From Nitratiruptor sp. YY08-10 (lineage in GTDB: Bacteria > Campylobacterota > Campylobacteria > Campylobacterales > Nitratiruptoraceae): 64,000 nt of DNA. The DNA is taken from contig NZ_AP023057.1 in assembly GCF_016629565.1 (NCBI RefSeq), forward strand, positions 744,001 through 808,000, read 5' to 3'. The notes beneath the pieces are model-generated. The model was not told the DNA's origin and did no database searches. It was given only the letters and a program-made list of their open reading frames with translations. Shown here piece by piece: positions 8,246 to 52,981 of this stretch; the first letter of the stretch is position 1, and each line of letters begins with the position of its first letter. A program made the position numbers and the translations under genes.

Positions 8246-9919
8246 TTGAAAAGTCTCAATCAGCAGCTTCAAGAGTGTATCGTCCATCTCTTTGAACATG
8301 TTTTTGAAGGAATTATTTTTATTGAAGTTGATGGAACGATTCTATATGCCAACGGCAGTGCTGCAAAAATAGTAGGATATCAAAAAGAAGAGCTTGTAGG
8401 GAAAAACGTATTTGAATTTGTTGATGATAATTGCAAAAGTATTGTACAAAACCATATTGGAAAAAATTATAGCAAACCCTACAAAGTCAAGGTTAAAAAA
8501 AGAGACGGTTCGAATGCCTGGGTTTTGGTGAAGGGGAGAAGTATCCAGTTATTCGGTACTGTTTTGCGTATCGTTTCCATTTTTGATATTTCCGAAATCG
8601 TAGAAAAAGATAACCTTATTGACTACCTGTCCAATTACGATTTGCTTACAGGACTTTACAACAGAAAGTTTTTTTTAGAGTATATCCAAGAAGTACTTTC
8701 CTTTTATACGAGTCATTCTCTTTATGGGACAATCTTTTTTATCGATATCGACGATTTTCGAGAGATCAATGAGATTCGTGGACATGAAATTGGAGATCTT
8801 CTTTTAAAAGAGATCAAAAAAAGACTACAAGCCCTTGTGAAAACGGAGGCTTTGATAGCCAGAGCCGGAGGTGATGAATTTCTTATCTTTTGTGATTTAA
8901 AAGAAAAAAATAGAGAGAGAGCTCGGATTTTCAGTGTCACGTTTGCAAATCGGCTGCGAAAAGAGTTGGAAAAGCCTTATTGTATCGAGGATCAGACTAT
9001 CAACATAACAGTCAGCATCGGTATTGCACTGATTGAGCCAAATTTAGATATCGCCACTTTGTTAAAACAGGTTGATGTCGCTTTGTACAACGCGAAAGAG
9101 AAGCGAAGAAATCGCATTATCGTTTTTAATTCCAGATATCTTGAGATGGTAAAAGAGAAGAGCGCATTAAAAGAAAAAATCAAAGCCGGACTGAAAAGAG
9201 GCGAATTTTTTCTAGCCTTTCAAAAAAAAGTCCGTTTACAAAACGGTTCCCCACATATTGTTGGATATGAAGCGTTGATACGATGGGAACGAGACGGAGA
9301 GATAATTTCTCCAGCCAAATTCATACCTATAGCTGAAGAGAATGGATTGATTATCGAAATAGGTGAGTATGTTTTGCGTGCGGTCTGCTCCTATCTTCAA
9401 AATAGTGATACGAAGATTTCGGTCAATATCAGTCCAAGACAATTTGAGGACGAGCTTTTCGTCAAGCGAGTGAAAGAAATTATCAATGAATATAGCATCG
9501 AGCCAAATAATCTTATCTTTGAGATAACAGAAAATATTTTATTGGAAAATATCAAGGAAGCGATTGTTAAAATAATTCAACTAAAAAAATTTGGTATATC
9601 ATTTAGCATCGATGATTTTGGAACGGGGTTTTCTTCCTTTGAATATCTAAAAACGCTTCCGCTGTCTGAGCTGAAAATCGATCAAATGTTTGTAAAAAAT
9701 ATTGTCGATAATTCCAATGATTATGCAATTGTGGAAGCGATGACAAAAATTGGTCATATTTTTGAGTTGCAAGTAGTTGCAGAGGGTGTTGAGACAAAGG
9801 AGCAGCTGCAAATTTTACAAAAGATCGGGGTAGATGTGTATCAAGGATACTATTTTGGCAAACCCGAAATCAATCAATTTATAAGGAGTATAAATGGGAT
9901 TTATAAAGAAACATTTTGA
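8246..9919 (+). CDS. PAS-GGDEF-EAL cyclic-di-GMP enzyme
   Basis: A 557-residue soluble protein with TTG start and AAGGATATT upstream. It has a PAS sensor (about 12-118: GIIFIEVDGTILYANGSAA), a diguanylate cyclase domain (about 125-295) with DLLTGLYNR, FIDIDDFREIN and an intact AGGDEF (208-212), and an EAL phosphodiesterase domain (about 305-550) with EALIRW, NISPRQF, ITEN, DDFGTG, LKIDQMF, VAEGVET and QGYYFGKP. All catalytic motifs of both domains are present. The inhibitory I-site RxxD is absent (KTEA instead). No membrane segment. It overlaps the next gene by 26 bases, so it is co-translated with a receptor and a CheW protein. Confidence 0.93.
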   Translation: MKSLNQQLQECIVHLFEHVFEGIIFIEVDGTILYANGSAAKIVGYQKEELVGKNVFEFVDDNCKSIVQNHIGKNYSKPYKVKVKKRDGSNAWVLVKGRSIQLFGTVLRIVSIFDISEIVEKDNLIDYLSNYDLLTGLYNRKFFLEYIQEVLSFYTSHSLYGTIFFIDIDDFREINEIRGHEIGDLLLKEIKKRLQALVKTEALIARAGGDEFLIFCDLKEKNRERARIFSVTFANRLRKELEKPYCIEDQTINITVSIGIALIEPNLDIATLLKQVDVALYNAKEKRRNRIIVFNSRYLEMVKEKSALKEKIKAGLKRGEFFLAFQKKVRLQNGSPHIVGYEALIRWERDGEIISPAKFIPIAEENGLIIEIGEYVLRAVCSYLQNSDTKISVNISPRQFEDELFVKRVKEIINEYSIEPNNLIFEITENILLENIKEAIVKIIQLKKFGISFSIDDFGTGFSSFEYLKTLPLSELKIDQMFVKNIVDNSNDYAIVEAMTKIGHIFELQVVAEGVETKEQLQILQKIGVDVYQGYYFGKPEINQFIRSINGIYKETF

Positions 9920-25834: not shown

Positions 25835-28654
25835 ATGAAAAATCATATAGAAATTTTTGGAGCAAAACAGCACAATCTCAAAAATATTAATCTAAAAATT
25901 CCAAAAAACTCGCTTGTTGTCTTTACAGGACTTTCCGGAAGCGGAAAATCTACACTTGCTTTTGATACGCTCTACGCTGAAGGGCAGAGGCGATATATCG
26001 AATCTCTTTCAAGTTATGCTAGGCAGTTTCTCGATAGACTCGATAAACCGGATGTGGATAAAATAGAGGGGCTGACGCCTGCGATTGCGATCGAACAAAA
26101 AACCACAAGCAAAAATCCTCGCTCGACTGTCGGAACGATAACGGAGATCTATGACTATCTCCGGCTTCTTTATGCAAGAATCGGTCAGCAGCACTGTCAC
26201 CTTTGTGGTAAACCTATTTCGCAAATGAATCCGCAAGATATTATCGATGAAGTGCTCAAGCTTCCTCAGAGTGCCAAAATGGTTATCACAGCACCTTTAG
26301 TCAAAGAGAAAAAGGGAAGTTTTGCAGATTTGTTGGAAGGACTTCGTCAAAAAGGGTATGTACGAGCCATGATCGATGGAGTGATGGTGCGACTCGATGA
26401 AGAGATTGAGCTGAGTAAAACGAAAAAGCACACTATTAAAGCGGTTGTGGATAGAGTTGTGATGAAAGAGGAGAATCGAAGCAGAATCGCCCAAGATATC
26501 GAAAAGGCTTTGCAAACGAGCTATGGGGAAGTGGAGATCGATATTTTGAATGCCGATGAGCTTGGTGTCAAATCGCATTATCACTACAGCGAGCATCTTG
26601 CCTGTTTTGATTGTAAAGTGAGTTTTGAACCCTTGGAACCTTTGAGCTTTTCGTTTAATTCCCCCAAAGGGGCTTGTGAGGAGTGTGATGGACTTGGTAT
26701 TCGCTATACGCTGGATCTCCAAAAGATTATCGACCAGCACAAATCGATAGAAAAAGGTGCTATCAAATTTTTATATGGGTATAATAAAAGTTACTACTAT
26801 AAGTTTTTGATGGCCTTTTGCGAGCAAGAGGGGATCGATACAACTGTTGCTTATGAAGAGTTGCCAGAACATCAGAAAAAAGCGATTTTATACGGAATGG
26901 GGCAGAAGGTCTCATTTAGATGGAAAAGCCATAACCTTGTCCGGGAGTGGCCAGGAATAGTGAAAATTGCCTATGATATGTTCCGCGATGAAACAGAGCT
27001 CGGTGAGTATATGAGTGAAAAGGTGTGTGACAAGTGTAGCGGCCACAGACTCAAGCAGGAGAGTTTAGCTGTCAGAGTTGCCGAAAAAGGGATAGCGGAT
27101 ATTCTGGATATGCCGATAGAGGAGGCGTATGAATTTTTTGCCAATGAGAGCAGTTTCTCCTATCTTTCTGAGCAAAAAGCGGCAATTGCCGCTCCAATTT
27201 TAAAAGAGATACGAGAGCGACTCTTTTTCTTGGTGGATGTAGGGCTTGGATATCTATCATTGGGAAGGGATGCCCGAACCATCAGTGGGGGAGAGGCGCA
27301 ACGGATACGGATTGCGAGCCAGATTGGAAGCGGACTAACCGGTGTGATGTATGTTTTGGATGAACCGAGTATCGGTTTGCATGAAAGAGATACGCTCAAA
27401 CTTATTCGAACACTGAAAAATCTTCAAAAAAAAGGCAACACTGTCATTGTCGTGGAACATGACAAAGAGACGATCGAGGCGGCCGATTTTATTGTGGATA
27501 TCGGACCAGGTGCCGGCAAGCATGGAGGCGAGGTTGTATTTGCAGGAAGCGTGGATGAACTGAAAAAGAGTTCCACACTCACCGCACAGTATCTCAGTGG
27601 TGCCAAGAAGATAGAGTATTTTCATAGACGCCCGCAAAAAGAGTGGCTTCATGTAAAAAACGTTACGATCAATAACATCAAAGATTTGAGTGTTTTCTTT
27701 CCTTTGAGAAATTTTGTAGCTGTTACGGGAGTGAGTGGCAGTGGAAAAAGCTCGCTTGTTCTGCAAACTCTTCTGCCTGTGGCAAAAGAGGCGTTGAATC
27801 ATGCAAAAAAGGTGCGTAAAGTAAGTGGTGTAACGATTGAAGGGTTGGAGCATCTCGATAAGGTGATCTATCTTGACCAGTCTCCAATCGGAAGAACCCC
27901 AAGGAGCAATCCCGCTACCTACACAGGAGTGATGGATGAGATTCGCGCTCTTTTTGCAAAAACGAAAGAGGCGCAAATTCGAGGGTATGGTCCGGGACGA
28001 TTCAGTTTCAACGTCAAAGGCGGACGATGTGAGAAGTGCCGGGGAGAAGGAGAACTCAAAATCGAGATGCATTTTTTGCCCGATATCATGATCAAGTGTG
28101 ATGCGTGTAAAGGGAAACGATACAATGAACAGACGCTAGAAGTGCACTATAAAGGGAAAAATATTGCCGACGTGCTTGCCATGAGTGTAGATGAAGCGCT
28201 GGAGTTTTTTAAAAATATTCCAAAAATCTATCAAAAACTCAAAACCTTGCAAGATGTTGGTCTTGGATACATCACTCTTGGACAAAATGCCGTAACTTTG
28301 AGCGGTGGAGAAGCGCAGAGGATAAAATTGGCAAAAGAGCTCAGTCGAAAAGATACGGGCAATACGCTTTATATTTTGGATGAGCCGACCACCGGACTTC
28401 ATTTTGCCGATGTGGACAGGCTTATCAAAGTATTGCACCATTTGGTAGAATTGGGAAACAGTGTTATCGTAATAGAACACAATCTGGATGTCATCAAAAA
28501 CGCAGACTATATCATCGACATGGGACCTGAAGGCGGGATACGGGGTGGAAAAGTCGTTGCCACCGGATCTCCCGAAGAGGTGGCTGCACATTATGAAAAG
28601 ACAGGAAGCTTTACAGGAGAATTTTTAGCAAAAGAGTTGAGAGATGAGAGATGA
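25835..28654 (+). CDS. uvrA: Excinuclease ABC subunit A
   Basis: A 939-residue DNA damage sensor of nucleotide excision repair. Two ABC ATPase modules are present: Walker [16 protein letters not shown] near residue 33 and [15 protein letters not shown] in the C half, each with an ABC signature (SGGEAQRI). Zinc sites are visible as CFDCKVSF and CEECDGLG in the N part and [16 protein letters not shown] with CDACKGKRY in the C part. Start ATG follows AGAGGAG. The end overlaps the HDOD gene by 11 bases. Confidence 0.97.
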
Positions 28655-29450
28655 AATCATAAGAAAAATACGGTCACTGCCACCACTGCCTAAAACGATC
28701 GAAGAGTTTGAGCAAGCGGTCAGTAAAGAAGATGTGGATTTAAATGAAGTGGTAACAATATTGCAAAAAGATCCGATGCTTGTTGCCGATATTTTGAAAC
28801 ATGTCAATTCGCCTTTTTACGGTCTCAGAGAAAAAATAGAGGATTTGGATAGAGCGCTCTCGTATCTTGGGTTGCAAGAGGTTCGGTCGATCGTCATGCA
28901 GCATTCCATAAAAAAACTTTTCAATATCGATATGGAACCATATGGAATAACAGCAGAGCAGTTTGCTCATATTTCACAAATGCAGTCAAAACTGATGGAG
29001 GTATGGTATAAAAAGATCAATCCTGCAAAGGTACGTTTTTTAAAACTGGCCGCATTTTTGCAAGAGCTTGGGAAAATTGTGATTGCAGATGTGATCATTC
29101 AAGAGGATATGGTCTACCCTTTCCGATCCGAGATCGAGATGACCAATGATATCGCTCATGTAGAGAAAAGTTTTATAGGTTCCTCAACAGCAGAAATCAC
29201 TGGTGCTATGTTTGAGTATTGGGGGTTTGAAAAAGATCTTGTAGAGGCTATCTCGTATGCTGATGACTATGAAAAAGCAGATGATTTTTTTGAAGAGTCT
29301 TTAGCGCTCCATCTTGTCAAAAGAGCAGTTCCTGTCAATAAACCATTACATGATATAAGTATCACGATTGCCAAAAACATTGCACAAAAAAATGGAGTTG
29401 AGATAACCTCTTTTGAAGAAGCGATTGAGGCGCTGAAGGCTATTGCGTAA
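28644..29450 (+). CDS. HDOD-domain signalling protein
   Basis: A 268-residue soluble protein. The HDOD core is clear: LPPLPKTIEEFEQAV, VVTILQKDPMLVADILKHVN, SPFYGLREKIEDLDRALSYLG and LQEVRSIVM. HDOD proteins are HD-fold relatives that usually lack full catalytic residues and act in signalling and motility. The gene overlaps uvrA by 11 bases and its 3' end overlaps the small minus-strand gene. Role unknown; in other bacteria HDOD proteins affect chemotaxis, competence or cell cycle. Confidence 0.85.
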   Translation: MRDEIIRKIRSLPPLPKTIEEFEQAVSKEDVDLNEVVTILQKDPMLVADILKHVNSPFYGLREKIEDLDRALSYLGLQEVRSIVMQHSIKKLFNIDMEPYGITAEQFAHISQMQSKLMEVWYKKINPAKVRFLKLAAFLQELGKIVIADVIIQEDMVYPFRSEIEMTNDIAHVEKSFIGSSTAEITGAMFEYWGFEKDLVEAISYADDYEKADDFFEESLALHLVKRAVPVNKPLHDISITIAKNIAQKNGVEITSFEEAIEALKAIA

Positions 29451-49241: not shown

Positions 49242-49836
49242 TATAGGAAATACCAATATAAAAATATACAATGACGGATTGGTGCAAATAGTATCTCAAG
49301 AGGAACTTTTGTCCTATCAGGATCAAAGGCTTTTCTATCTTAGCGTCCATCCCTCTTTACAAAGTTTTCCGGATTGCAAGAAGTGGATCAATCTTGAACC
49401 ATTTGTTTCTGTAAAGAGTAGTTATAACGGATTGGGAGTGGATAGAAAAGCATTATGTTCTCTTGTGGATGAAGGAACTGTGATTGACGCAGGGAGTGCC
49501 ATTACGGTTGATGTGATGCAAGACAATATTCATACGGGTGGATTTATCTATCCTGGGAAAAAAGCTTTTTTTGAAGCTTTTAGAAATATTTCACCAAGGC
49601 TCGATTTTTCTTATCAGGATATTTTGAAAGATCGATTGCCTCAAGAGACACGTTCGGCACTGAGTTACGGTTTTATAGCTCCTTTGGTGGCGCTGGTCGA
49701 AAAACTTCCAAAGCCGTGGTATGTGACAGGGGGTGATGGAGGATTGCTGTTGCAATATTTGCCAGATGCGATATACAGACCTCATATGATTTTTGAAGCG
49801 ATGAAGCAAATAATACAAAGGAATGGATTATGCTAA
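49228..49836 (+). CDS. coaX: Type III pantothenate kinase
   Basis: 202 residues from ATG 49228; the frame is open upstream but that part lies inside the preceding gene. The enzyme phosphorylates pantothenate for CoA. ASKHA motifs: LLCDIGNTNIKIYND, GLGVDRKALC, VIDAGSAITVDVM, TGGFIYPGKKAF and YVTGGDGGLL. A bit shorter than most CoaX (about 250), as in other Campylobacterota. Confidence 0.9.
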   Translation: MLLCDIGNTNIKIYNDGLVQIVSQEELLSYQDQRLFYLSVHPSLQSFPDCKKWINLEPFVSVKSSYNGLGVDRKALCSLVDEGTVIDAGSAITVDVMQDNIHTGGFIYPGKKAFFEAFRNISPRLDFSYQDILKDRLPQETRSALSYGFIAPLVALVEKLPKPWYVTGGDGGLLLQYLPDAIYRPHMIFEAMKQIIQRNGLC

Positions 49837-50447
49837 CGATTGCACTTCCAAAGGGTCGGATTGGTGAGGATTCTTTAGCTCTTTTTGAAAAAATTTTTGA
49901 TGAGAAATTTGAGTTTGGAAAAAGAAAACTGATTTTGGAAGCAGGTGGCTTTCGGTTTATGAAAGTGAGAAACCAAGATGTTCCAACCTATGTATATCAT
50001 CAAGCGGCTGATCTTGGTATTGTCGGATTGGATGTGTTGGAGGAGAAACGGCTTGATATTATGAGACTGCTTGATCTCGGTTTTGGCAAATGTGACATAT
50101 GTATCGGGATCAAAGCGGAAGAGGAGCTGGATTTTTCGAAGCCAAGTTATAAAGTCGCAACTAAGATGGAAAATATTACAAGAGATTTTTTTAGCAAAAA
50201 GGCGATACCCGTTGAGATCATTAAACTGTATGGTTCTATTGAGTTGGCACCTCTTGTAGGATTAGCCGATATGATCGTAGATATTGTCGAAACGGGAGAG
50301 ACAATGCGTCAAAATGGATTGAAGCCTGCTTTGAAGATTATGGAAAGCAGTGCTTTTTTGATAGCCAATAAAAACAGCTTTTATCAGAAAAAAGCACAAA
50401 TTTTGCATTTACGTGAGCAGATGAGTAAGGTTTTATATGGGGCTTGA
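49830..50447 (+). CDS. hisG: ATP phosphoribosyltransferase, short form
   Basis: A 205-residue first enzyme of histidine synthesis. Motifs: LTIALPKGRIGEDSL, the DLGIVGLDVLEE region, YGSIELAPLVGLADMIVDIVETG and the end LKIMESSAFLIANK. It lacks the regulatory C-terminal domain, so it is the short form that needs HisZ. HisZ is not in this window. It overlaps coaX and the next methyltransferase. Confidence 0.95.
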   Translation: MLTIALPKGRIGEDSLALFEKIFDEKFEFGKRKLILEAGGFRFMKVRNQDVPTYVYHQAADLGIVGLDVLEEKRLDIMRLLDLGFGKCDICIGIKAEEELDFSKPSYKVATKMENITRDFFSKKAIPVEIIKLYGSIELAPLVGLADMIVDIVETGETMRQNGLKPALKIMESSAFLIANKNSFYQKKAQILHLREQMSKVLYGA

Positions 50448-51117
50448 ACTCTATGCGAAAATTGAACCTTTTTTGGGATTTGAACAAGAAAAACAGAAAC
50501 TTTATCAAATCTACATCGATAAACTACAGAGTTTAGGAATAAAAAATTTTCTTGATTTGGGATGCGGTAGCGGTACATTCATGCAATTGGCCCTTGATAA
50601 GGGGTTGGAGCCTTTTGGTATCGATTTGAGTACGGAGATGGTTCGTCGATGTCAAAACAAAGGTTTAAAAGCAAAAGCGATCGATATATGCGATATGCAG
50701 GAGAGGTTTGAGGCTGTTACTGCAGTGTTTGATGTGCTTAATTATATTGAACCGAAACATTTGGAGAGGTTTTTTGACTGTATTGCAAAACGGCTCCCAA
50801 TCGGCGGCTATTTTCTTTGTGATATCAATACGCTTTTTGGATTTGAAGAGATTGCACAAGGTTCGCTCATTCTTGATCAAGAAACAGTTTGCATCGGTAT
50901 TGATGCAGAGTTTGATAGGGAAAAGCTTATGACAAAATTTATTCTTTTTGAACAAAAAGATAACTGTTTTACAAAATCTGTCGATAATATAGTGCAATAT
51001 TATCATGATGTTGCCGACCTGAAAAAATTTGCGTTACAGTTGGTTGATATAGATTTGATATCGTTGTATGCAGATCAGTCAGATAAGGCGTTATTGACGT
51101 TTCAAAAGGGTAGATGA
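50437..51117 (+). CDS. SAM-dependent methyltransferase
   Basis: A 226-residue class I methyltransferase. Motif I is FLDLGCGSGTFMQLAL near residue 40, followed by FGIDLSTEMVRRC and a VFDVLNYIEP motif. Substrate unknown. It overlaps hisG by 11 bases and the PilZ-HDOD gene follows without a gap, so it is part of a coupled chain. Confidence 0.8.
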   Translation: MGLELYAKIEPFLGFEQEKQKLYQIYIDKLQSLGIKNFLDLGCGSGTFMQLALDKGLEPFGIDLSTEMVRRCQNKGLKAKAIDICDMQERFEAVTAVFDVLNYIEPKHLERFFDCIAKRLPIGGYFLCDINTLFGFEEIAQGSLILDQETVCIGIDAEFDREKLMTKFILFEQKDNCFTKSVDNIVQYYHDVADLKKFALQLVDIDLISLYADQSDKALLTFQKGR

Positions 51118-52955
51118 TGGGGTTGTTTGGTTTTGGTAAAAAGAAAAAGGAGCAGGTTGCTGTCAGCGAAACGAATGAAATTGAACATATTGCCATTAAT
51201 CATCGAAAAGAGAATCGGTATATTGCAAAGTCTGGTACCACTTGCAATTATGGTGAGGTTGTCGATTTTTCAAAAAAGAGTCTTGCTGTAGCTGTTACGA
51301 AAGGGTCCCATGAAACGGGTGAATCTTTGCAACTGGAGCTTGAAGGAATCAGTATTGATGCAAAAGTATTACGGGTTGCTCCGAAAAAAATGGCTTTAAA
51401 ATTGGAAAATGATCTTGCCGAATCTGTAGCAAAACGGATAAAAACCAAACTCAAAGAGAGTGAAATTGAACCAAAATCTTTACTCGATTTTCAAAATATG
51501 GAACATGACCCTGATATGGAGAAAAAAAGAGCGATCATTAATCTTATGCTTGAACTAGAAGATCCCAATACAAGTGTAGAAAAATTTAAAGATAGTATTC
51601 ATGCTATCCCTGAGATACGGGACCATCTTATTGCTCAAGCCAATTCGCTGGAAAACAGCAGACTGGGTGAAGTAAAAGATGAGGGAGGAGCCGTTACGAG
51701 GCTCGGTTTTGATAGAGTAAAGGCTATTGTGTATGACTATATTATGCAAGAGAGTACGAAAGCGGATGAATCCCTTTCGCATTTTAAAGATTTCGATATA
51801 TATAAAATTGTTTTAGGGGCTTATTTTAAAAAGTTTGCGCCTCTGTTTGGTTTTAAAGACAGAAACAATGAAGCGATACACTTTTTAAGTACGCTCAATA
51901 TAGGAGCGGAATATCTTGCGAAACAGAGTGGACGTTTAGCCGAACTTTACAAATCTCCGTATGAACTCTTTAGTTTTGAGATGCGGTTCATGGAATATCG
52001 TGAGTTTGGAACGGATCTTTTCGAAATTAACAAATATTACTTTGTCGATTCACTCAATATTTTTCGCTATATCTATGATGGATTTGTATTGGCAAACATG
52101 ATGCTTTATCCCAAATACACGCCTCACTATACAATAGAACTGAGTGAAAGAAAGATGCGCTTTGGGTTTATTGTCTATCTTTGTATTTTGGCCCTTCGCT
52201 TTATTCTTTCAAAAGACAAATACAGTGGAGTCATTTTTTATAATAGACTCAAACGGTTGGGATATGATGCGGTAAGTGCGAAAGAATTTATCAACGAAAC
52301 AAACGCCCTTATCAACCAGCAGTTGATTCGTTTGGGAATTGACAAAAAGATTCAGCAGCCAGATCTTGGAAGCGGATATGCGTTTTCATTGGAAAATTAC
52401 ATTGGGTCAGGGATCTATTATGAGTATGTCCATAGAATGCTTGTTTTATTCGATGACAAAGCTACAAGAATGGCATTACGGTTTGAAGATGAGTATTACA
52501 CGATGGATGTACTGGAAAAAGTGCTCAATTTTGATGAATTTGGATTTAAAAACAGCGCTTTTGTTATAGTGCCTTGCAGTGCCCTGGCCGATGATGAAGT
52601 CCCAATGGATCAATTCAAAGCATTCAATCTTGTCGTTTTTAAAGATGTAGACAAACTTCCAAAAAAATTACAAAAAGATTTTCTTAAAATATGGAAAGAT
52701 TACGAAGATAAGATTATTTGTACATTTAGCAGCGATTCGATGATAGAGTATGAGAACAAAGAGCTTTTTGAAGCATTACAGCCTTATATTGTCGATTTCC
52801 CAAGCTACTACCAAAGTCCGCTTCTTTATACCAAAATGCTTACCAATACAGCACAGCAAATCAATAAATTTCTTGGCACATCTGCTTGTGATATTGCATT
52901 GTTCAAAAACGATTATGTGACGCAAAAGAGTGTATATGTAGAGTGTTTAAAGTAA
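51117..52955 (+). CDS. PilZ-HDOD signalling protein with long unknown C-terminus
   Basis: About 612 residues from the second of two adjacent ATGs (51114, 51117). A PilZ-like domain (about 30-108) has RKENR, fitting RxxxR, then VDFSKKS in place of DxSxxG (last Gly replaced by Ser). An HDOD-like region follows (about 130-330: IINLMLELEDPNTSVEKF, IRDHLIAQANS, AVTRLGFDRVKAIV). The C-terminal 280 residues are not recognised. No signal peptide or clear transmembrane segment. It may bind c-di-GMP with reduced affinity. Ends at a strong bidirectional terminator. Confidence 0.8.
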   Translation: MGLFGFGKKKKEQVAVSETNEIEHIAINHRKENRYIAKSGTTCNYGEVVDFSKKSLAVAVTKGSHETGESLQLELEGISIDAKVLRVAPKKMALKLENDLAESVAKRIKTKLKESEIEPKSLLDFQNMEHDPDMEKKRAIINLMLELEDPNTSVEKFKDSIHAIPEIRDHLIAQANSLENSRLGEVKDEGGAVTRLGFDRVKAIVYDYIMQESTKADESLSHFKDFDIYKIVLGAYFKKFAPLFGFKDRNNEAIHFLSTLNIGAEYLAKQSGRLAELYKSPYELFSFEMRFMEYREFGTDLFEINKYYFVDSLNIFRYIYDGFVLANMMLYPKYTPHYTIELSERKMRFGFIVYLCILALRFILSKDKYSGVIFYNRLKRLGYDAVSAKEFINETNALINQQLIRLGIDKKIQQPDLGSGYAFSLENYIGSGIYYEYVHRMLVLFDDKATRMALRFEDEYYTMDVLEKVLNFDEFGFKNSAFVIVPCSALADDEVPMDQFKAFNLVVFKDVDKLPKKLQKDFLKIWKDYEDKIICTFSSDSMIEYENKELFEALQPYIVDFPSYYQSPLLYTKMLTNTAQQINKFLGTSACDIALFKNDYVTQKSVYVECLK

Positions 52956-52975
52956 AACGGGCTCAGGCCCGTTTT
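52954..52975. terminator. Bidirectional terminator between PilZ-HDOD gene and rpsR
   Basis: AAAACGGGC pairs perfectly with GCCCGTTTT around TCAG. The A/T ends give T-runs in both directions, and the stem serves the plus-strand PilZ-HDOD gene and the minus-strand rpsF-ssb-rpsR operon. Confidence 0.85.
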
Positions 52976-52981
52976 ACTTTA

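Follow-up and report, generated by a model that had tools for sequence, protein, structure and literature searches.

Enzymes, DNA-binding proteins or motor brakes carry most of the known outputs of cyclic di-GMP (c-di-GMP). The HDOD domain is reported to lack catalytic activity. SadB, an HDOD protein of Pseudomonas fluorescens, binds c-di-GMP, controls the synthesis of flagella and has been characterised as a negative regulator of motility (PMC6543031). SadB is the closest working example for the gene described here, which lies at positions 51,117–52,955 (forward strand, as for all features listed below) of a 64,000-nucleotide stretch of the genome of Nitratiruptor sp. YY08-10 (contig NZ_AP023057.1; hereafter the window) and encodes a 612-residue protein that likewise carries an HDOD domain in a regulator. 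SadB has a YbaK-like N-terminal domain (same article), whereas in the 612-residue protein a PilZ domain stands there by fold, and an AAA+-like end is added. In its domain make-up, known folds are best read as being combined in a new way. The explanation that we favour, although the case for and against it is about evenly balanced, is that the protein is a c-di-GMP-controlled, enzyme-dead three-domain signalling adaptor.

Conservation and domain architecture

The gene is real, conserved and family-specific. It is a single open frame of 612 codons plus a stop, with an alternative in-frame start (ATG) at 51,114. Because 18 full-length orthologue sequences align across their whole length and the ratio of non-synonymous to synonymous substitution rates (dN/dS) against a 98%-identical orthologue is 0.05 overall, indicating purifying selection, the frame is more than a product of chance. 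By part, dN/dS was 0.09 for residues 1–126, 0.05 for residues 127–418 and 0.03 (0.028) for residues 419–612, the AAA+-like part having the lowest value of the three; these estimates derive from 16 non-synonymous and 70 synonymous changes, of which 2 and 15, respectively, fall in residues 419–612. Pairwise identity is 0.33 in the PilZ part, 0.53 in the HDOD core and 0.42 in the AAA+-like part. The structure of the whole protein was predicted with a local distance difference test score (pLDDT) of 88.7 and a template modelling score (pTM) of 0.88.

The PilZ domain was assigned by predicted fold to about residues 28–112 (51,198–51,452; domain model pLDDT 82, pTM 0.61). Compared with PDB structures, this domain model retrieved PilZ proteins first, with Z scores of 10.2 down to 7.3 (BcsA, 10.2; c-di-GMP-bound YcgR, 9.6; Alg44, 9.0). 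The top 27 rows include 26 PilZ proteins, by title or name, and one entry titled uncharacterised, 4q63 (Lpg0364); V-ATPase barrels start at row 28 with a Z of 7.3, equal to that of row 27. The same entry, 4q63, was the best match of a PDB sequence search with the profile of the PilZ part (E 0.03). YcgR, Alg44 and BcsA share the fold and carry RxxxR just ahead of the first strand, as does the 612-residue protein (R30-K-E-N-R34; 51,204–51,218), in which this motif is present in 18 of 18 orthologue rows. It differs from them in its partner domains, in a score under the Pfam PilZ threshold and in an altered DxSxxG, which reads D50-F-S-K-K-S55 (51,264–51,281). An earlier note, made on the window from its letters only, had described exactly this PilZ-like start, with RxxxR intact and DxSxxG changed to DFSKKS; the lack of a PilZ fold in the model, the structural half of what that note had named as refuting its reading, did not come about.

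The HDOD domain probably spans about residues 127–405 (51,495–52,331), with residues 141–241 assigned by sequence and the remainder by fold only. An HDOD-like core had also been recognised in the earlier note, and Pfam HDOD (PF08668) places it at residues 141–241 with an E value of 5.8e-6 and a score of 26.4 bits (curated cut-off, 22.9), a match that covers profile positions 9–110 of 196 only and recurs in 18 of 18 orthologue rows. No other Pfam or NCBIfam family was among the matches listed for the protein (E≤10) in scans whose filters drop most matches above an E of about 0.1, and a search of PDB sequences with the profile of the whole family found HDOD entries (best E 0.0017). Structure 3p3q superposed on model residues 127–398 with a Z of 11.9 over 200 residues at 4.2 Å, a score that helical domains can reach through a common arrangement, which makes the assignment of the second half of the domain less certain. 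Stand-alone HDOD proteins of Campylobacterota match the N-terminal half of this domain (HDOD-part profile against six of them, hhalign E 1.5e-10) but have about 270 residues and neither a PilZ nor an AAA+-like part; since the alignment covered 63 columns only, the second half is unmatched to them by sequence. One such stand-alone protein is encoded in the window at 28,644–29,450, directly after a gene that we take to be UvrA-like, and the same order is seen at loci L061 and L054 of other genomes.

The final part of the protein was described in the earlier note as a 280-residue unrecognised region and a new output domain. The stretch without a sequence family is in fact longer than those 280 residues, at about 370, but structure prediction and a structural search, which that note had proposed, yielded a confident model with recognisable folds, and the idea of an unknown fold was set aside. 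Judging from this model, the region is probably made up of the remainder of the helical HDOD domain and an AAA+-like domain devoid of catalytic motifs (about residues 422–612; 52,380–52,952; pLDDT 82–97 by blocks of ten); it is thus probably not a new fold, and what is new is the combination of domains. Residues 422–612 superpose best on the AAA+ domain of the sigma-54 activator FlrC (4qhs; Z 12.7, 182 of the last 189 residues, 3.3 Å), and the predicted model has the alpha/beta core and lid of AAA+ proteins. Further matches include FleQ (Z 12.4–10.8) and VpsR (Z 11.9 and 11.6); sigma-54 activators fill 39 of the top 40 structural rows (Z 12.7–11.0), the HDOD protein 3p3q standing at row 18, and are followed by clamp loaders (11.0), ClpA (10.6) and the proteasome, at Z 11.0–10.5.

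The AAA+ domains of sigma-54 activators (FlrC, FleQ, VpsR, NtrC1) share the predicted fold of residues 422–612, and titles of structure entries for FleQ and VpsR name c-di-GMP, but the 612-residue protein differs from such activators in having no Walker A, GAFTGA, receiver or DNA-binding domain. By the order of strands and helices in the model, the P-loop place after strand 451–456 reads F-E-D-E-Y (52,482–52,496), with no glycine-rich loop or lysine there and no GxxxxGK anywhere in 18 of 18 rows; D458, within this place, is invariant in all of them. The Walker B place is taken by LVVFKDVD (residues 505–512; 52,629–52,652); two profile alignments, with Campylobacterota sigma-54 activators and with a ClpB-like protein, both put LVVFKD in Walker B register, neither being significant alone. 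The DE pair is replaced by KD, with K in 17 of 18 rows and R in one. GAFT occurs in 0 of 18 rows of the family versus 16 of 16 aligned sigma-54 activators, and the stretch between strands 2 and 3, the GAFTGA site in activators, has 28 residues here versus 47 in the three activators measured. An active ATPase was rejected on these motifs (no Walker A, no Walker B DE). The invariant C-terminal residues (R451, D458, F477, D492, F503, L514, F522, K524, D528, T536, L550 and P562) suggest a surface that is conserved, though a different one.

The superposition might instead reflect a different alpha/beta domain that resembles AAA+ only through a common layered arrangement. No AAA+ family was matched by sequence, as would be expected in that case, and a PDB sequence search with the C-terminal profile gave four matches, none of them AAA+, the best (E 0.0018) being to mL100 via repeats of one weak stretch. 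Given the extent of the superposition on FlrC and the agreement of two separate alignments on the Walker B place, we hold such a coincidence to be quite improbable.

Predicted role in c-di-GMP signalling

Since an ATPase-shaped domain lacks the usual ATP-binding parts, the protein is probably not an enzyme but a docking protein that can be switched. The PilZ domain would bind c-di-GMP via R30 and R34, the HDOD domain may relay the resulting change or hold a partner, and the AAA+-like end, without motifs for binding or hydrolysing ATP, would serve as a docking surface. Binding of c-di-GMP to the PilZ domain would then alter how the HDOD and dead AAA+ domains present this surface, and, by analogy with the HDOD protein SadB, the process controlled would most likely be the switch between motile and sessile states. 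If this is true, a PilZ-HDOD protein with an ATPase fold stripped of its catalytic parts represents c-di-GMP output through docking alone, and it becomes a candidate for linking the many diguanylate cyclases of the Nitratiruptor group, in which neither sigma-54 nor an activator was found, to behaviour.

A further element that may belong to this mechanism is the N-terminal tail MGLFGFGKKKK (residues 1–11; 51,117–51,149), which is predicted to be disordered (pLDDT 36) and yet is the best conserved of the stretches measured, with a mean pairwise identity of 0.78 versus 0.18 for residues 12–27. A degenerate DNA pattern for the tail (≤2 mismatches) turned up in 15 of 31 genomes, always at the start of the 612-residue gene, and was not seen in these 31 genomes as a motif common to other proteins. 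Its hydrophobic-basic part (FGFGKKKK) might anchor the protein at the membrane or on a partner.

Several observations weigh against a c-di-GMP-controlled adaptor. Pfam PilZ (PF07238) does not match the window's protein, which stays below the curated cut-off; matches of any kind occur in 3 of 18 orthologue rows (best E 0.003), and a Foldseek search with the PilZ domain model put PilZ entries on top but none at E≤0.001 (best 1.6e-3). Among the three domains, the PilZ part shows the lowest conservation, and DxSxxG is complete in 6 of 18 rows and departs in 12. The best Foldseek match of the whole model is SadB itself (PDB 9qzk, E 3.4e-4), but loosely (template modelling scores 0.24/0.31, root-mean-square deviation 16.0). 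No motility or biofilm genes are among the neighbours identified.

The low conservation of the PilZ part and the departures from DxSxxG, the window's protein included, would also suit a protein that has lost c-di-GMP sensing, in which PilZ has only a structural or protein-binding part to play, and another signal controls the function carried by the HDOD and AAA+-like domains. RxxxR is, however, universal among the orthologues and D50 is kept in 17 of 18 rows. The six rows with the full motif are those of genera g2 and g3, while among the 12 rows of genus g1 the G has become S in 10 and T in one and is kept in one; the full motif is for this reason probably ancestral. Loss of sensing is on these grounds possible but doubtful. 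Assuming that the change of G to S in DFSKKS is compatible with binding, c-di-GMP binding by the 612-residue protein is plausible.

Among the titles and abstract openings listed in literature searches, none described the protein or its architecture, and a search of the main text of PMC10092412 found neither HDOD nor PilZ nor c-di-GMP in it.

Relation to sigma-54 activators

The structural likeness to sigma-54 activators was set against their occurrence in 60 genomes, 22 of which belong to the Nitratiruptor family (f1). Neither sigma-54 (PF04552, E≤0.001) nor an activator (E≤1e-15) was found in any of the 22 family genomes, that of the window included, some of which are incomplete drafts, and 31 of the 38 others hold both. 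The two are present or absent together across the 60 genomes, and seven genomes of the same order (G023, G026, G029, G032, G045, G047 and G058) also have neither. Pfam PF00158 has no match in the 612-residue protein or the 18 rows, and the gene is not among the 13 places of its own genome that match at E≤0.1; at looser thresholds the best PF00158 match in this genome is a frame that we take to be ClpB-like. Since none were found in 22 family genomes at the thresholds used, action of the protein through sigma-54 or its activators is unlikely, and a role as partner subunit of a sigma-54 activator hexamer was rejected, no activator having been found in the family.

The C-terminal domain could nevertheless be a relic of a sigma-54 activator (e.g. 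FlgR), left behind after sigma-54 was lost and re-used as a c-di-GMP output module. Activators head the structural match list, neither sigma-54 nor an activator was found in the family, as described, and the native flagellar genes of Nitratiruptor are reported to have been lost, the Aquificota-type set that it acquired having neither RpoN nor FlgRS (PMC9321776). Sequence proof of such ancestry failed, however: hhalign against activators gave an E of 0.089 and a score of 17.99, which 17 of 300 column shuffles equalled or passed (reversed control, 14.65). Among controls made with a single protein or small profile, a ClpB-like protein scored slightly above the activators (19.6 versus 18.0; E 0.094), and MoxR-like, HolA and HDOD gave E values of 0.24, 0.61 and 0.13. 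Even at E≤10, the C-terminal profile found no activator in the 31 sigma-54-bearing genomes, its one match (E 0.08) being to a frame with four stops. Generic AAA+ proteins also lie within 2 Z units of the activators, and none of the seven other sigma-54-less genomes of the order has the 612-residue protein. With these points combined, a relic seems rather unlikely. Because none of the sequence comparisons linked the domain significantly to sigma-54 activators and a ClpB-like protein scores as well, the AAA+ claim rests on the predicted fold. More speculative still, and in our estimate unlikely, is that a dead, sigma-54-activator-shaped AAA+ domain, near-universal in a sigma-54-less family, is now a docking platform ruled by PilZ and HDOD that may steer the Aquificota-derived flagella.

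Distribution and history of the locus

The Nitratiruptor group consists of deep-sea-vent bacteria. In a protein search of the 60 genomes, the 612-residue protein was found in 21, all among the 22 sampled f1 genomes, several drafts having a copy truncated where a contig stops. Among 397 genomes of the class, a profile search that scored no more than three candidates per genome gave 11 full-length copies, all in f1, and 14 more genomes with short matches over the HDOD core only; the C-terminal-domain profile matched 6 of 200 genomes, again all f1. A full-length copy outside f1 was thus not found in the samples searched. When a genome contig collection was scanned with two peptide patterns, which distant relatives elsewhere may escape, 13 loci came up under the labels Nitratiruptor, Campylobacterales, Campylobacterota or Epsilonproteobacteria. 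A mobile origin was not indicated, with no relative in viral contigs (in a pattern-limited scan) or plasmids and a best PHROGs E of 0.02.

In the window, the gene directly follows a gene that is presumably hisG, as the earlier note names it (49,830–50,447), and an S-adenosylmethionine-dependent methyltransferase gene (50,437–51,117; Pfam Methyltransf_25, E 7.4e-11). The gapless succession given in the earlier note is correct: the methyltransferase gene shares 11 bp with hisG, and its stop shares 1 base with the ATG at 51,117. Downstream, a terminator-like hairpin (52,948–52,981; 15 pairs, 4-base loop, T-rich tail) separates the gene from a convergent gene, presumably rpsR from its translation; five such sites were observed in the region versus a mean of 4.0 in shuffles, which is weak as a statistic. 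The methyltransferase gene is 85% identical to its counterpart in the closest genome, versus 98% for both hisG and the 612-residue gene.

This order is conserved. Across 22 loci from 19 genomes, some represented twice, hisG and the methyltransferase gene lie upstream in 21, the remaining locus being cut by a contig end, and ssb and rpsF lie downstream in 19, two of the other three stopping at a contig end. The third, L031 (genome G007), has about 3 kb downstream of the gene without ssb and rpsF, and no rpsR; it is the sole locus with sequence downstream where these three genes do not follow, so its junction was rearranged. G006, alone among the sampled f1 genomes in giving no match, has rpsR directly beside the methyltransferase gene, as do G043, G055 and G038 of other families, the two genes being about 4 to 200 bases apart as measured between their matched parts. 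The other five loci outside f1 are different: G059 has another frame, of 200 residues, before rpsR, G024 and G026 have other neighbours, and in G027 and G040 no hisG was seen beside the methyltransferase gene. In a tree of hisG and the methyltransferase, made from 28 of 30 rows after two that lacked hisG were removed, G006 falls inside its genus with support of 100/98. This history is most simply explained by a single gain at this junction in the f1 ancestor and a single loss in G006, whose genome is 85% complete, so that a copy elsewhere in it is possible, although the junction site itself is read through and empty.

Overlapping genes and an order conserved throughout the family could mean that the protein serves its operon neighbours, the methyltransferase or the ribosomal protein genes, rather than surface behaviour. 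As the methyltransferase gene and rpsR-ssb stand directly side by side in G006, G043, G055 and G038, they do not need the 612-residue gene, and we consider this explanation very unlikely.

The c-di-GMP network of the genome

GGDEF is matched 29 times in the genome and Pfam PilZ three times, with the 612-residue gene not among the latter. The earlier note had suggested a link to the c-di-GMP gene at 8,246–9,919, which encodes a 557-residue protein with PAS, GGDEF and EAL all over Pfam cut-offs. This link found no support, as the gene lies 43 kb away, is one of the 29 GGDEF matches and shares only chemistry with the 612-residue gene. It is followed by a frame at 9,894 that reads like a chemoreceptor signalling protein. 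HDOD is matched five times in the genome, including the 612-residue gene and one frame that is presumably RNase Y-like. A 400-residue frame with an HDOD match (L076, 865–2067) has an EAL-like start and resembles EAL-HDOD proteins such as CdgJ. The PilZ proteins of the genome that exceed the cut-off are encoded by two overlapping neighbours (L071, 498–1842) and by a gene at L072, 1459–2499, whose product has a likely N-terminal membrane segment and which lies beside a small coiled-coil gene.

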